This document shows, piece after piece, positions 20,664-45,519 of a stretch of 64,000 nt of DNA (within the stretch, counting starts at the first letter, position 1; every line of letters starts with the position of its first letter). The stretch lies in NCBI GenBank assembly GCA_003343625.1, contig QAKV01000005.1, forward strand, positions 1 through 64,000, read 5' to 3'. The notes beneath the pieces were generated by a model. It was not told where the DNA came from. It searched no databases and saw nothing but the letters and a program-made list of their open reading frames with translations. The stretch comes from Clostridiales bacterium (lineage in GTDB: Bacteria; Bacillota; Clostridia; Lachnospirales; Lachnospiraceae). The position numbers were made by a program, and so were the translations under genes.

Positions 20664-21023
20664 TCAGCGATAATCCACGCTGTAATAGGGAACGATCAGA
20701 TATTCTCCTGCACGGATCTCATCCTCCTGCAGATGGTTTGTCATGCGTACCTCTTCGATATAGTCCTCGATTGACTCGTAGTGCTGATCCGCATATTGCC
20801 GGGCAATGGAAGTAAGAGTATCGCCGGGATAGACCAGAATACTCGTGAAATATTTGTAGCTGACAGGAGATGCTTCTTCCTGGGCATCGGAAAGGAAGCC
20901 AAATCCGAGAGCTCCGAAAGCCCCTGAAAGGCAGATCGCCGTCAAAACCGCCGCAATTCTGAACCGAAGCTGTCTCCTCCTGCGACAATAACTATATGAA
21001 AATGTCCTTCCGCCCTTTCTCAT
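20664..21023 (-). CDS. yneA: LysM membrane protein, YneA-like SOS division inhibitor
   Basis: 119 residues: a basic N terminus (RRRRQLRFR), one membrane helix (about 22-43, IAAVLTAICLSGAFGALGFGFL), then an extracellular LysM domain (VYPGDTLTSIARQYADQHY ... EIRAGEYLIVPYY). Size, topology and position divergent from lexA match Bacillus YneA, which delays division during SOS. Sequence identity to YneA is not claimed; the symbol rests on topology and the SOS promoter. Its promoter contains a LexA-box-like site in the spacer and a perfect one downstream. Confidence 0.75.
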   Translation of the reverse strand: MRKGGRTFSYSYCRRRRQLRFRIAAVLTAICLSGAFGALGFGFLSDAQEEASPVSYKYFTSILVYPGDTLTSIARQYADQHYESIEDYIEEVRMTNHLQEDEIRAGEYLIVPYYSVDYR

Positions 21024-21195: not shown

Positions 21196-21257
21196 GATAT
21201 ATATTTATAGATCGAATGGGAGCGGAAAAAGTTTCAGTCCTGCGCGGAAAGGGGTTA

Positions 21258-21335
21258 GTGTGAAAACGAGCCCGGCAGCTTATTTTTCACACGGATGGCA
21301 TGCTCCGTCGCTGACGCTCCGGAACGGAGGTTTTT
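21258..21335 (+). repeat. Structured leader repeat, copy A (lexA)
   Basis: Begins with a hairpin GTGTGAAAA (21258-21266) / TTTTCACAC (21284-21292), continues through GATGGCATGCTCCGTCGCTG and GACGCTCCGGAACGGAGG, ending directly at the lexA ATG. CTCCGT (21303-21308) can pair with ACGGAG (21324-21329), which would occlude the Shine-Dalgarno. The same modular element precedes aroB (29078-29186) and, shortened, miaA (45404-45471). Confidence 0.75.
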
Positions 21336-21956
21336 ATGGCGCAGAGAAAAATCACTGCCAAACAGCAGGAAATTCTTGACTATATTAAGAACGAAATACT
21401 GGAGAAAGGCTATCCTCCCGCAGTTCGGGAGATCTGCGAAGCGGTACATTTGAAGTCCACTTCTTCTGTTCATTCCCATCTGGAGACGCTGGAGAAGAAC
21501 GGTTTCATCCGCAGGGATCCCACCAAGCCCCGCGCAATCGAGATCTGCGATGAGAGCTTTCAGATGGTTCGTACGGAGATGACCAGCATTCCCGTCATCG
21601 GTAATGTGGCGGCCGGGCAGCCGATTCTGGCGGAGGAGAATATCGAGAGCTATTTTCCGATACCCGCAGAGATGATTCCTTCCGGCGACCCATGTTTCAT
21701 TTTGAAGGTTCGCGGGGAGTCCATGATCAATGCGGGGATTCTCGACGGGGATCGGGTCTTCGTACAGAGTCGTCAGGAAGCGAATAACGGTGAGATGGTA
21801 GTTGCCCTGATCGATGATTCTGCCACGGTCAAGAGATTTTACCGCGAGAACGGGCATATCCGCCTTCAGCCGGAGAACGACTCCATGGAGCCCATCATCG
21901 TAGACGACTGCCGGATTCTTGGAAAAGTGTTCGGCGTGATGCGGATTTACCGCTGA
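21336..21956 (+). CDS. lexA: LexA SOS repressor
   Basis: 206 residues. N-terminal winged helix (residues 1-70, [32 protein letters not shown]); cleavage site Ala93-Gly94 in NVAAGQP; catalytic Ser129 in RGESMINAG and Lys166 in ATVKRFY. It represses SOS genes and self-cleaves when RecA is activated. Only plus-strand gene between 17 and 64 kb. GGAGG sits six bases before ATG and is part of the leader repeat, so translation may be affected by that structure. Confidence 0.97.
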
Positions 21957-21973: not shown

Positions 21974-22043
21974 AAAAGAGGCGCTGCCGCAACAGATGAT
22001 TTCCGGGTGGGAAGCCCGTTCCTGTTGCGGCAGCGCCTCTTTT
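21974..22043. terminator. Bidirectional terminator lexA/rsfS
   Basis: Perfect 22-bp inverted repeat (21974-21995 and 22022-22043), 26-base loop, with A-run and T-run at the ends on both strands. It separates convergent lexA and rsfS. Confidence 0.9.
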
Positions 22044-27979: not shown

Positions 27980-29077
27980 TCAGCCCTCTTCTTTGAAGTT
28001 CAGTTCTTCCACGGCGGAGGAGATTTCTCCGTCGGTTACCTTCTCGTCCAGCGCCGCCTGACCGATTCCGTCCAGCAGGACGAAACGGATATGCCCGCCG
28101 TCCATCTTCTTATCGGACTTCGTCAGCGCTACGATTCTGTCCACATCCAGATCGTCCGCGGAGATGGGCAGCTGGAATGGGACGAACATATCGCGGATCT
28201 CATAATACTCTTCCATTTCGATTCTTCCTTTTTTCCAGGAAATATATGCGGCGGCCACGCAACCCAGGGCCACGCATTCCCCGTGCAGGAGAGAAAAGCC
28301 GCTGTTCTTTTCGATGGCGTGGCCGATGGTGTGGCCGAAGTTCAGAAGGGCCCGCTCCCCCCTTTCTTCCGGATCTTTCTCCACAATCTCCCGCTTGATC
28401 TCGCAGCTGCGCCATATCATGCGCTTTAAGGTTTCGGGATCCCGGGCGCAGATTTCATACATGTTTTTGATCAGCCATTCGTAATAGCGGCTGTCCCGGA
28501 TCAAGCCGTGCTTCATCACTTCCGCGAATCCGTTGTAAAATTGTCTGGGCTCCAGCGTCTGAAGCGTATCGGGGTTAATATAGACCAGGGAAGGCATATG
28601 AAAGGCGCCGACCATATTCTTGTACGCATCGAAGTCCACCCCCGTCTTCCCGCCGATGCTGGAATCCACCTGGGCCAACAGGGTGGTGGGGATCTGGATG
28701 AAATCGATGCCCCTCAAATAGGTGGCGGCGGCGAACCCGGTCAGATCCCCCACCACGCCTCCGCCCAGGGCGATCAGCACATCCTTGCGGTCGAAGCGAT
28801 GCCCGATCAGAAACGCATACAGCTTCTGTACGGTATCGAGCGTCTTATGTTCTTCCCCGGCAGGAAAGGAAAAGACTTCACAGGCTGAAAAGACGCCCTC
28901 CAGCGCGCCCTTTACCTGAGGGACATAGAGAGGGCCCGCCCCGCTATCCGTCACGATACAGGCCTTTCTCCCGCGCTTATCCTCTCCGATCTCTGAAGGG
29001 AGACTATTGAAATCGTTGGAAAAGACGATGTCATAGCAAGGCTTCTCCTGATAGGAAACGGTCATTCTGTCCACCAT
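27980..29077 (-). CDS. aroB: 3-dehydroquinate synthase
   Basis: Start at MVDRMTVSYQEKPCYD; GGAGG lies five bases upstream at the end of the leader repeat. 365 residues. NAD-binding and active-site motifs: VTDSGAGPLY, ALGGGVVGDLTGFAAATYLRGIDFIQIPTTLLAQVDSSIGGKTGVD, LNFGHTIGHAIE. It performs step 2 of the shikimate pathway. No other aro gene is nearby. Confidence 0.96.
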   Translation of the reverse strand: MVDRMTVSYQEKPCYDIVFSNDFNSLPSEIGEDKRGRKACIVTDSGAGPLYVPQVKGALEGVFSACEVFSFPAGEEHKTLDTVQKLYAFLIGHRFDRKDVLIALGGGVVGDLTGFAAATYLRGIDFIQIPTTLLAQVDSSIGGKTGVDFDAYKNMVGAFHMPSLVYINPDTLQTLEPRQFYNGFAEVMKHGLIRDSRYYEWLIKNMYEICARDPETLKRMIWRSCEIKREIVEKDPEERGERALLNFGHTIGHAIEKNSGFSLLHGECVALGCVAAAYISWKKGRIEMEEYYEIRDMFVPFQLPISADDLDVDRIVALTKSDKKMDGGHIRFVLLDGIGQAALDEKVTDGEISSAVEELNFKEEG

Positions 29078-29186
29078 AAAAACCTCCATTCCGGAGCGTC
29101 AGCGACGGGGCGTGCCATCATAGCTATTTGTGACGCTCCGGCACAAATAACCGTGTGAAAAAAGCTATCAGGCTTCTTTTTCACAC
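29078..29186 (-). repeat. Structured leader repeat, copy B (aroB)
   Basis: On the minus strand: hairpin GTGTGAAAA/TTTTCACAC (29178-29186 with 29153-29161), second hairpin TATTTGTG/CACAAATA (29142-29149 with 29125-29132) whose loop holds CCGGAGCGT, then GATGGCACGCCCCGTCGCTG and GACGCTCCGGAATGGAGG to the ATG. The loop sequence CCGGAGCGTC (29132-29141) is perfectly complementary to GACGCTCCGG (29091-29100) next to the Shine-Dalgarno, so two folds exclude each other. Confidence 0.75.
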
Positions 29187-29207
29187 TACTTCCTTATCCG
29201 GGCCACG

Positions 29208-43127: not shown

Positions 43128-44447
43128 CTACAGCAGGGCCATCGGAACGGCAGAAATCACCCCTTTTTCCAGACAGCGCTGGAGGGACTTCAGGATTCCG
43201 AATTTGGCGTGCTGCCAGGTGAGTCCTCCCTGGAAGTAAGCCGCATAGGGAGGTTTTAAGGGGCCATCCGCAGACAGCTCGCTGGAAGATCCCGACACGA
43301 AAGCGCCCGCCGCCATGATCACCTGGCTGTCGTATCCGGGCATATCCCAGGGCTGTGGCGTCACGAAACCGTCCACGGGAGCGGCGTACTGAATCCCTTC
43401 GCAGAATGCGATAAGGCCCTCTGGCGTCCCGAATTCCACCGCCTGAATGATGTCATAGCGTTCCGATTTTCCGTCCGGTACAACGCGAAAGCCGAGCTGT
43501 TCGTAAAGATTGGCTGCGAAGATCGCGCCTTTTAAGGCGGAGGCGGTCACGGCAGGGGCCAAAAACAGTCCCTGATAAAAGGCGGGCAAGGCGTTTAACG
43601 AAGCGCCCACTTCCCGTCCGAGCCCCGGAGAAGTCAGCCGGCAGGCCGCGTTTTCCACGCATTCTTCCGTTCCCACGATATAACCGCCGATGGGAGCCAG
43701 GCCGCCTCCCGGGTTTTTGATCAGGGAACCCACGCACATGTCTGCTCCAACCTGGGTGGGCTCGATGGTCTGCGTGAATTCGCCGTAACAGTTGTCCACC
43801 ATACAGATTAAATCCGGCCTGATACCCTTGAGAAAGGCGATCAGCTCGCCGATGCGTTCCACCGACAGGGTGGGGCGGGTCTGGTATCCTTTGGAACGCT
43901 GGATCGTCACCAGCTTCGTCTTCTCGTTTACCGCAGCGCGGATACCTTCCCAGTCGAAGCTTCCGTCCTCCTTTAAATCCACCTGACGATAACTGATCCC
44001 ATACTCCTTCAGCGATCCTCGTGACTCCCGGATTCCGATGACCTCTTCCAGCGTATCGTAAGGCTTTCCCACAGGGGAAAGGAGTTCGTCGCCAGGCCGC
44101 AGATTGCTCATCAGCGCCAGGGCCAGCGCATGAGTCCCACAGGTGATCTGGGGACGGACTAAGGCAGCCTGGGTATGAAACAGCTTCGCGTAGACGGACT
44201 CCAGTGTATCCCGTCCCAGATCGTTATAGCCGTACCCTGTGGTGCCGAGCAGACAGGCCTCGCTCACGCGGCAGTCCTGCATGGCTTTCACCACCTTGAG
44301 CTGGTTGTATTCCGCCATTCGGTCGATGGCGTCAAAGCGCCCCTTAAGCCTCTCCAGCGTCCGTTCTCCGTACCGATATACATCCCGGGAGATTCCCATG
44401 GACGCGTAGACGGCTTCCATTTCCCCTCCCACAGGTTCTTTCGTCAT
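43128..44447 (-). CDS. Methionine gamma-lyase-like PLP enzyme (YnbB family)
   Basis: 439 residues. Aminotransferase fold type I; GYGYNDLGRDTLE, TCGTHALALAL, MVDNCYGEFTQTIEPTQVGAD and PLP lysine in GSLIKNPGGG fit the 'methionine gamma-lyase family / aluminium resistance' group that follows miaA in Firmicutes. Substrate not established. Start overlaps the miaA stop by four bases. Confidence 0.88.
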   Translation of the reverse strand: MTKEPVGGEMEAVYASMGISRDVYRYGERTLERLKGRFDAIDRMAEYNQLKVVKAMQDCRVSEACLLGTTGYGYNDLGRDTLESVYAKLFHTQAALVRPQITCGTHALALALMSNLRPGDELLSPVGKPYDTLEEVIGIRESRGSLKEYGISYRQVDLKEDGSFDWEGIRAAVNEKTKLVTIQRSKGYQTRPTLSVERIGELIAFLKGIRPDLICMVDNCYGEFTQTIEPTQVGADMCVGSLIKNPGGGLAPIGGYIVGTEECVENAACRLTSPGLGREVGASLNALPAFYQGLFLAPAVTASALKGAIFAANLYEQLGFRVVPDGKSERYDIIQAVEFGTPEGLIAFCEGIQYAAPVDGFVTPQPWDMPGYDSQVIMAAGAFVSGSSSELSADGPLKPPYAAYFQGGLTWQHAKFGILKSLQRCLEKGVISAVPMALL

Positions 44448-45403
44448 CCTCTTATTTCCTCCGCCTGTTTTATTAAAAATCGTAATATGTTATTTTCGTC
44501 CAAAAAGTCCCTTCTGTCAACCCAAATCACACTTTTTTCACGTTTAAACCAGGTCAGCTGGCGTTTGGCGAAGTGCCGCGTGTCCCTCTTGATCCGATAA
44601 ACCGCTTCTTCCAAGCTGTATTCCCCGTCCAGATAAGCGAGGATTTCCTTATATCCGAGCCCCTGCATGGAAACCATCCCCTTTTGGAGCCCTTTCTCCT
44701 TCAGAGCCTGAACCTCCTTTACCAATCCCCGTTCCATCATTTCATCCACCCTTCGGTCGATGCGCCCGTAGATAGCATCGCGGTCATCCGTCAACACCAG
44801 ATATCGAAAATTCCAGACCGGTTTCTTTTGGCGCTGTTCCTGGTTGTGATCAGATATTTTTTCTCCTGTCTGAGCATGAAATTCCAGCGCGCGGATGACC
44901 CGCTTGACGTTATTGGGGTGGATACAGGCTGCGGCCTCAGGATCGGCTTCCCGCAGCATGGAATGAAGCTTTTCCGGCCCTTCCTGCGCGGCCAGCCGCT
45001 CCAGCCGGCCGCGAAAATCCCCATCCTCCCGGGTTTGGGTAAAATCGATTCCATAGAGCACCGACTGGATGTAAAAGCCCGTTCCTCCTACCAGAATAGG
45101 CAACCCGCCCCTTTTGTGAATGGATGCGATAGCCTCCAGGGCCAGCTTCTGAAAGAGTACCACATTGAAGTCCTCTTTCGGATCGAGCACGTCGATGAGA
45201 TGATGGGGAACGCCGTCCATCTCATCCTTTGTCACTTTTGCGGAGCCGATGTCCATTCCCCGGTAAACCTGCATAGAGTCTGCGGATACGATTTCTCCGC
45301 CCACCGCTTTCGCCAGGCGGACGGAGAGCGAGGTCTTTCCCACGGCCGTAGGTCCCGTGAGAATCAGCAGAGGAGGTTTTTTTATCCGTTCAACAAAATC
45401 CAT
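44444..45403 (-). CDS. miaA: tRNA dimethylallyltransferase
   Basis: Start at MDFVERIKKPPLLILTG because GGAG precedes it and the ATG four codons upstream falls inside the ribosome site. 319 residues. P-loop TGPTAVGKTSLS, then SADSMQVYRGMDIGSAK, HLIDVLDPKEDF and RQLTWFKRE. It isopentenylates A37 of tRNA, the substrate of MiaB encoded at 50.6 kb. Preceded by a shortened copy of the leader repeat. Confidence 0.95.
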   Translation of the reverse strand: MDFVERIKKPPLLILTGPTAVGKTSLSVRLAKAVGGEIVSADSMQVYRGMDIGSAKVTKDEMDGVPHHLIDVLDPKEDFNVVLFQKLALEAIASIHKRGGLPILVGGTGFYIQSVLYGIDFTQTREDGDFRGRLERLAAQEGPEKLHSMLREADPEAAACIHPNNVKRVIRALEFHAQTGEKISDHNQEQRQKKPVWNFRYLVLTDDRDAIYGRIDRRVDEMMERGLVKEVQALKEKGLQKGMVSMQGLGYKEILAYLDGEYSLEEAVYRIKRDTRHFAKRQLTWFKREKSVIWVDRRDFLDENNILRFLIKQAEEIRG

Positions 45404-45471
45404 GTTTTTCTCCATTCCGAAGCGTCACAAATCCGGATTGGAAAATGCGTTATCGAACGAATTTTCCAATC
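45404..45471 (-). repeat. Structured leader repeat, shortened copy C (miaA)
   Basis: On the minus strand: perfect 11-bp hairpin GATTGGAAAAT/ATTTTCCAATC (45461-45471 with 45436-45446), with inner CGTT/AACG, then CGGATTTGTG directly joined to ACGCTTCGGAATGGAGAAAA and the ATG. Compared with copy B it lacks the middle part, as if deleted, while the stem has been replaced by a different but analogous one. Confidence 0.6.
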
Positions 45472-45519
45472 TTTTCCTTTTTTCGCCGTCTGCCCGGCGT
45501 CCCGGCCTTTGTTTTGGGA

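Follow-up and report, generated by a model that had tools for sequence, protein, structure and literature searches.

Leader elements ahead of lexA, aroB and miaA are probably copies of a small mobile element of Lachnospiraceae that inserts between the Shine-Dalgarno sequence and the start codon

Introduction

Three unrelated genes of a Lachnospiraceae genome, lexA, aroB and miaA, are preceded by similar structured leaders within the 64,000-nt stretch of DNA analyzed here (hereafter the window), which raises the question of how one RNA fold comes to stand ahead of all three. The original prediction, made from the sequence of the window, offered two answers: a family of dispersed mobile leader elements or a shared post-transcriptional switch.

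Results

Each of the three leaders contains one copy of the element, and each copy ends on a Shine-Dalgarno sequence (SD) directly 5' of the start codon, as the original prediction had proposed. The sequence blocks that it described ahead of lexA, aroB and miaA are all present where it placed them and exceed what is expected by chance in shuffled sequence: GACGCTYCGGAAYGGAGG, with up to 3 mismatches allowed, has 3 matches in the window (0.32 expected), GATGGCAYGCYCCGTCGCTG has 2 (0.03 expected) and the GTGTGAAAA/TTTTCACAC hairpin has 2 (0.00 expected). The three copies were also recovered with a covariance model trained on 29 related elements from outside the window (E values: aroB = 4e-30; miaA = 9e-10; lexA = 7e-8). 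Of its four weaker matches in the window, two fall on the aroB and miaA copies in antisense (E = 0.0015 and 0.009), and the other two have E values greater than 1.

A full copy of the element is about 130 nt long and consists of hairpin HP1, hairpin HP2, TGATGGCA, hairpin HP3, CCCCGTCGC and a segment that we call M4. The lexA and miaA copies are reduced to HP1 plus the end, and the aroB copy is near-full, without HP3. On the plus strand, the lexA copy comprises HP1 (21258-21292), a remnant of the middle block, GATGGCATGCTCCGTCGCTG, without HP2 or HP3 (21294-21313; sequence and shuffle test), an M4 segment ACGCTCCGG (21314-21322; motif search) and, at its 3' end, the SD GGAGG (21326-21330), which lies 5 nt 5' of the ATG (21336) of lexA (21336-21956; TIGR00498). 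On the minus strand, the aroB copy comprises HP1 (29153-29186), HP2 with the stem GGTTATTTGTG/CACAAATAGCT (29122-29152; sequence and covariance model), the same M4 segment (29091-29099) and a 3'-terminal GGAGG (29083-29087) before the ATG at 29077-29075. The miaA copy, also on the minus strand, comprises HP1 (45436-45471), an M4 segment ACGCTTCGG (45417-45425) and a 3'-terminal GGAG (45410-45413) before the ATG at 45403-45401. HP1 was assigned by sequence and covariance model in all three copies, with the shuffle test in addition for lexA and aroB, and M4 of the aroB and miaA copies was assigned by sequence and motif search. The original prediction had missed the hairpin inserted in the aroB copy, whose HP2 loop, CCGGAGCGT (29133-29141, minus strand; sequence and family counts), is the exact complement of the M4 segment before the SD.

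An SD-like sequence, likewise missed in the original prediction, is found upstream of all three copies: AAGGGG at 21249-21254 (plus strand) for lexA, and AAGGA at 29191-29195 and at 45475-45479 (both minus strand) for aroB and miaA, respectively. Judged by sequence, AAGGGG is probably the older SD of lexA, and in a relative (G002) where the element is absent, lexA is preceded by GGAAAGGAG. The end of the element, GGAATGGAG (29089-29077 and 45415-45403, minus strand), contains an in-frame ATG 12 nt upstream of the one that follows the SD. Because of this ATG, mechanical ORF calls start both aroB (27980-29089 as called, minus strand, with the ATG behind the SD at 29077; TIGR01357) and miaA (44444-45415 as called, minus strand; TIGR00174) too early, a warning that the start of a gene behind a copy of the element can be misassigned.

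Three other features of the window were observed. A perfect 22-bp inverted repeat, probably a terminator, directly follows lexA (21974-22043); a gene for a YneA-like cell division suppressor is divergent from lexA (20664-21023, minus strand; 53.2 bits, below the cut-off of 60); and a 29-nt AT-rich repeat occurs in four copies, spaced 43-47 nt, at 825-989.

A covariance-model search of relatives, suggested in the original prediction, matched 15 of 295 genomes of the order and 1 of 398 genomes of the phylum, the latter being the query genome. When the family was sampled evenly, 29 of 397 genomes contained the HP2 21-mer with at most one mismatch, in up to 41 copies each, and within the genus 9 of 13 genomes had copies and 4 had none; the reversed control gave 0 in both samples. 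Exact copies of the 16-nt end were found 1-37 times in each of 16 genomes, which had been picked because one locus in each held the motif, and the reversed pattern was found 0 times. When a genome collection was scanned for the 18-mer GACGCTCCGGAAYGGAGG, 52 loci were obtained, many of them named Lachnospiraceae or Eisenbergiella; of 53 loci with the 18-mer, 12 (Arthrobacter, Sphingomonas, a viral contig and others) were judged by name or surroundings to be chance hits and excluded from the counts. A phage origin was rejected, as a single viral contig contained the 18-mer and the other modules were absent from it. In one genome (G017), matches to the Rfam family TD-2, described below, lie at the extreme ends of contigs C4, C5, C9, C30, C31 and C87, which suggests that short-read assemblies break on the element and that copy numbers may therefore be underestimates.

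To avoid selection on the SD, we analyzed the position of the element in copies sampled by HP2 rather than by SD or start codon. Of 68 such sites, 64 had the M4 end and 4 were either cut by a contig end or without M4. A start codon was present 7-17 nt after GGAA in 63 of the 64 M4-bearing sites (60 ATG, 3 GTG), with 46 at one offset, and 58 of the 64 had an open frame of at least 60 aa or one that ran to the end of the sequence (5 were short and 1 was without a start). With stricter de-duplication, 65 copies remained, of which 3 were contig-cut and 62 had M4; a start codon followed in 61 of the 62. The downstream proteins are unrelated, including by sequence reading isoleucyl-tRNA synthetase, purine nucleoside phosphorylase, RecR, OMP decarboxylase, TruA and response regulators, and a regulon is therefore unlikely. 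At one locus (L213:753-854), a ZTP riboswitch (62.1 bits) is located roughly 100 nt 5' of a copy, which lies between the riboswitch and the start codon.

We compared the regions upstream of orthologous genes across relatives. For lexA, the M4 end was present in 0 of 14 relatives (the best 84% identical). For aroB, 1 of 16 matches, a distant AroB at 36% (L110, in G001), had an M4-like end, GCGCTTCGGAAGGGAG, 5' of the start codon with the rest of the element missing, and for miaA, 1 of 16 matches (L117, in G003) had a full copy of its own. We then looked in 14 genomes for nine further genes, each selected for having a full copy in one genome, and read 60 upstream regions (one, L314, gave no alignment). 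Full copies were present in 1 of 13 regions for ilvH, 1 of 9 for yebC, 1 of 8 for coaX, 1 of 7 for araB, 1 of 6 for murF, 1 of 3 for proC, 1 of 2 for nadB, and 3 of 6 for both trpA and cdd, and the M4 end only was present at three more sites (coaX in G008, araB in G017 and nadB in G005). As the trpA and cdd copies are each common to three genomes, some copies have been inherited. At trpA, the empty site GGGGATTTGTatg (G020) can be set against the filled site GGGGATCTGC...GGAGATTTGTatg (G008). The proC site is filled in one and empty in the other of two genomes that are about 88% identical, the closest pair compared for empty sites and not strain level; no clean duplication is seen there, the right flank being GGAGATTGAG vs GGAGAGCTGTGAT in the native site. 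Copies are also nested, with three (L198, L205 and L352) located directly behind the SD of other copies.

The flanks of individual copies resemble each other. We compared the 41 nt located 75-34 nt before the HP2 loop with the SD-spacer to the right of M4, scoring shared words within and between copies. The mean longest shared word was 5.15 for a copy's own flanks vs 4.55 for permuted flanks (n = 109; 0 of 20,000 permutations), and words of 8 or more were shared in 13 of 109 copies vs 1.9 expected. An excess was also observed when flanks were permuted within genomes (5.34 vs 4.76; n = 73; 0 of 20,000) and when 21 nested-looking copies were removed (4.90 vs 4.49; n = 88; 0 of 20,000), and unusual SDs are repeated in the flanks too (GAGGCATA in L369; CGGAGAATA in L323). 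With the register fixed at 8 nt, the signal for duplication was weak (z = 2.7, n = 74), and at an earlier anchor, for which the element start was off by 2 nt in many copies, it was not significant (1208 of 20,000); from the analysis at that anchor, we rely on the HP2-to-M4 distances by frame, given below, alone. On this sequence evidence, the flank repeats likely represent a target duplication of variable length that includes the SD. The high copy numbers within genomes, the empty sites at orthologues, the nesting of copies and the repeats in the flanks make the family look mobile as well as dispersed, in agreement with the first answer of the original prediction.

The fold of the element is conserved. 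In 29 full elements, the four helices (HP1, HP2, HP3 and the pairing of the HP2 loop with M4) are paired in 94.8% of 1323 cells, compared to 34-46% in slid controls; both sides have changed in 27 of the 46 pairs, with 193 two-sided cells vs 60 in shuffles, and 0 of 500 shuffles reached any of five fold measures (the copies are related, so p-values for covariation are inflated). The 9-nt HP2 loop is complementary to M4, the segment before the SD, across the family. This pairing also covaries: at loop position 4 and M4 position 6, 110 rows contained 77 G-C, 21 A-U, 12 G-U and 0 A-C combinations, with one spurious row ('window-', loop CTGGAGCGG) counted within G-C. Both kinds of pairing are found inside one genome (G005, G017, G020 and G084), which argues for pairing in cis. 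Six of 61 HP2-sampled copies (L325, L329, L335, L340, L345 and L359) are eroded, their middle blocks having 4-6 matches vs a random mean of 5.1-5.2, and these six still pair loop and M4 at 8-9 of 9 positions, a count slightly favored by our acceptance of M4 with up to 3 of 12 mismatches. The original prediction would have been undermined by repeats that lacked covariation and were located chiefly within genes or at a distance from start codons; the copies covary and stand at start codons.

Within HP1 and HP3, there were 165 two-sided vs 12 one-sided changed cells, and G-U intermediates are therefore rare, which hints at a hairpin that acts at the DNA level or at one arm being copied from the other. 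Of 8 copies fetched from G084, 4 pass the HP1 test; their bodies are 94-100% identical, yet the outer arms of HP1 have 18 differing positions over the 6 pairs, and each of the 18 is changed on both arms. In L323, L369, L370 and L372 of this genome, the outer HP1 arms change jointly, as if arm were copied from arm. Three of 12 pairs that are out of register (L349/L350, L380/L382 and L380/L383) were left out of the HP1-arm comparison.

The retention of the loop/M4 pairing in eroded copies, and its covariation, would be expected of a translational riboregulator, in which a signal (a ligand, temperature or a ribosome on an upstream frame) moves M4 between the HP2 loop, leaving the SD open, and the SD, closing it, and in which copies spread as this control is useful. 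Pairing of M4 with the SD is possible in 97.2% of 145 cells, and ACGCTCCGGAAYGGAG is able to fold onto its own SD, a third feature missed in the original prediction. RNAalifold, a program unable to draw pseudoknots, retains loop/M4, HP1 and part of HP3 in its consensus of the same alignment, and pairs the 5' arm of HP2 with AAYGGA, covering the SD, instead of with the 3' arm of HP2. Folded singly, the aroB copy has its SD half open, the lexA copy has it closed whether or not M4 is held away, and the miaA copy opens three of its four SD bases, but only if M4 is held away. The loop/M4 duplex has a calculated energy of -16.9 kcal/mol vs -5.0, -3.8 or -0.9 kcal/mol for M4 on the SD. In these models, the job of the pairing is likely to keep the CUCC of M4 off the SD, and a regulated switch through it is possible. 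However, covariation was looked for and not found in the SD hairpin pairs, HP2 is absent from two of the three window copies, a copy is absent from most orthologues read, and the genes behind the copies are unrelated rather than the restricted, functionally related set expected downstream of a riboswitch. We consider a riboregulator unlikely as the explanation of the family. What survives of the shared post-transcriptional switch in the original prediction is an RNA pairing in cis that could control access to the SD; the common regulon that it implied is not borne out by unrelated genes and copies mostly unconserved at orthologues.

In the lexA copy, a short upstream frame runs from a GTG at 21260 to 21379 (plus strand) and overlaps the start of lexA. 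As this frame begins at SD spacing, in this and many other copies, its translation could be coupled to that of the gene in a leader-peptide system. In a search that admits similar lengths only, the peptide of one related element had 37 matches among predicted short proteins, one of them named ('hypothetical protein'). However, several copies are without a start codon at this position or have an immediate stop, and the distance from HP2 to M4 is distributed over the three frames as 35/40/35 (n = 110). A conserved leader peptide was rejected, as the frame is not conserved in the family, and we regard a leader-peptide system as very improbable.

Mobility of a hairpin-rich unit in a fixed orientation, with GGAG beside a possible CTCC guide, recalls single-strand transposition of the REP/RAYT or IS200/IS605 type, an analogy drawn from these sequence features. 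However, the flank repeats suggest target duplication, and IS200/IS605-type elements are not known to make one. Of the 16 carriers tested, 5 had a Y1 transposase (PF01797; one match marginal), as did 3 of 4 non-carriers. We therefore rejected this enzyme, absent from 11 of 16 carriers and not tracking the element, as the mobilizing enzyme, with its loss after mobilization being possible; no mobilizing enzyme was found by this search of 16 carriers and 4 non-carriers. We give a unit of this type the lowest probability of the accounts considered.

Discussion

Taken as a whole explanation, the leaders of lexA, aroB and miaA are probably copies of a small mobile element of Lachnospiraceae that is non-autonomous and whose insertions lie between the SD and the start codon of a gene, in the sense direction. 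We propose that the target, including the SD, would be duplicated at insertion so that the gene keeps a working SD, and that the 9-bp pairing of the HP2 loop with M4 would hold the CUCC of M4 away from the duplicated SD, making the insertion tolerable and leaving a possible point of control in cis. The effect on the gene is probably near neutral by way of this second SD and the loop/M4 clamp, with the second ribosome site at the far end probably keeping the gene expressed.

A more specific version, which we put forward tentatively and consider doubtful as a whole, is that base pairing by the element's own 3' end (ACGCUCCGG, a mimic of the anti-SD) selects the SD sites, that the element duplicates the SD and at each move rewrites the two arms of HP1 together, that TD-2 is a relative modeled from the other strand, and that the element represents a new class of mobile element. 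If the mobile-element account is true, landing between SD and start codon and yet leaving genes an SD would amount to a survival strategy of its own, and the family would provide gut bacteria with portable ribosome-binding sites and cis RNA folds from a natural source. The targeting of SD sites would become testable, with possible meaning for the Rfam family TD-2.

The Rfam comparison that the original prediction called for came out differently in the window and in other genomes. At the gathering threshold, the whole window had no match, and at E up to 10 the lexA copy had one miRNA match, which we judged to be chance. In contrast, Rfam RF03162 (TD-2, type sRNA) had 64 matches with E up to 0.01 in 12 of 20 genomes, comprising 11 of 16 carriers and 1 of 4 non-carriers (marginal), and in 0 of 14 control genomes; the gathering threshold of 48.7 was reached by 2 of the 64, one in each of 2 of the 20 genomes and none in the window. 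At 5 of 5 loci examined (L207 and L400-L403), the TD-2 match was antisense to an element that model R1 detects, and in G240 a weak same-strand match (E = 0.005) lies, by coordinates, over HP1 and the flank of a copy. The TD-2-matched loci that we looked at form a subfamily with other HP2 loops; L400, L401, L403 and L207:1333-1441 contain loop variants (CCGTTTCGG, CCGAAGC) and ends such as GTGCTTCGGCATGGAG, and TD-2 matches them from the other strand. TD-2, which we take to originate from Treponema denticola, is like the element in its three hairpins and their similar spacing, and unlike it in strand at the five loci examined, with the weak G240 match as an exception. TD-2 may be a relative for which the reverse strand was modeled; the copies in the window give no score with it. 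A term search of Weinberg 2010 (PMC2864571) returned neither TD-1 nor TD-2.

At the level of titles and abstract openings, a literature search returned no description of such an element, and 'Shine-Dalgarno' and 'start codon' have 0 occurrences in the text of two reviews (PMC2229807, PMC10969869). As described in these reviews, Rickettsia palindromic elements are palindromic mobile units of 105-146 bp that have spread through unrelated genes, where they are tolerated, and that form in-frame fusions within reading frames. On that description, both families would be tolerated mobile palindromic units in or near unrelated genes, and they differ in that the Rickettsia elements lie in frame inside reading frames and the element here precedes a start codon in 63 of 64 sites.

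Bacterial MITEs (ERIC, RUP and others) and the pneumococcal BOX element are, like the element described here, small, multicopy and hairpin-forming, with the present family reaching about 130 nt and up to 41 copies. BOX is also modular. For target-site duplication, another feature of MITEs, the signals here are mixed: repeats in a copy's own flanks are in strong excess, but the signal is weak in a fixed register and absent at proC. Unlike MITEs, the element shows no terminal inverted repeats, its ends GTGTGAAAA and CTCCGGAAT not being inverted repeats as read from the alignment, and, unlike both MITEs and BOX, it occupies a fixed position between SD and start codon.
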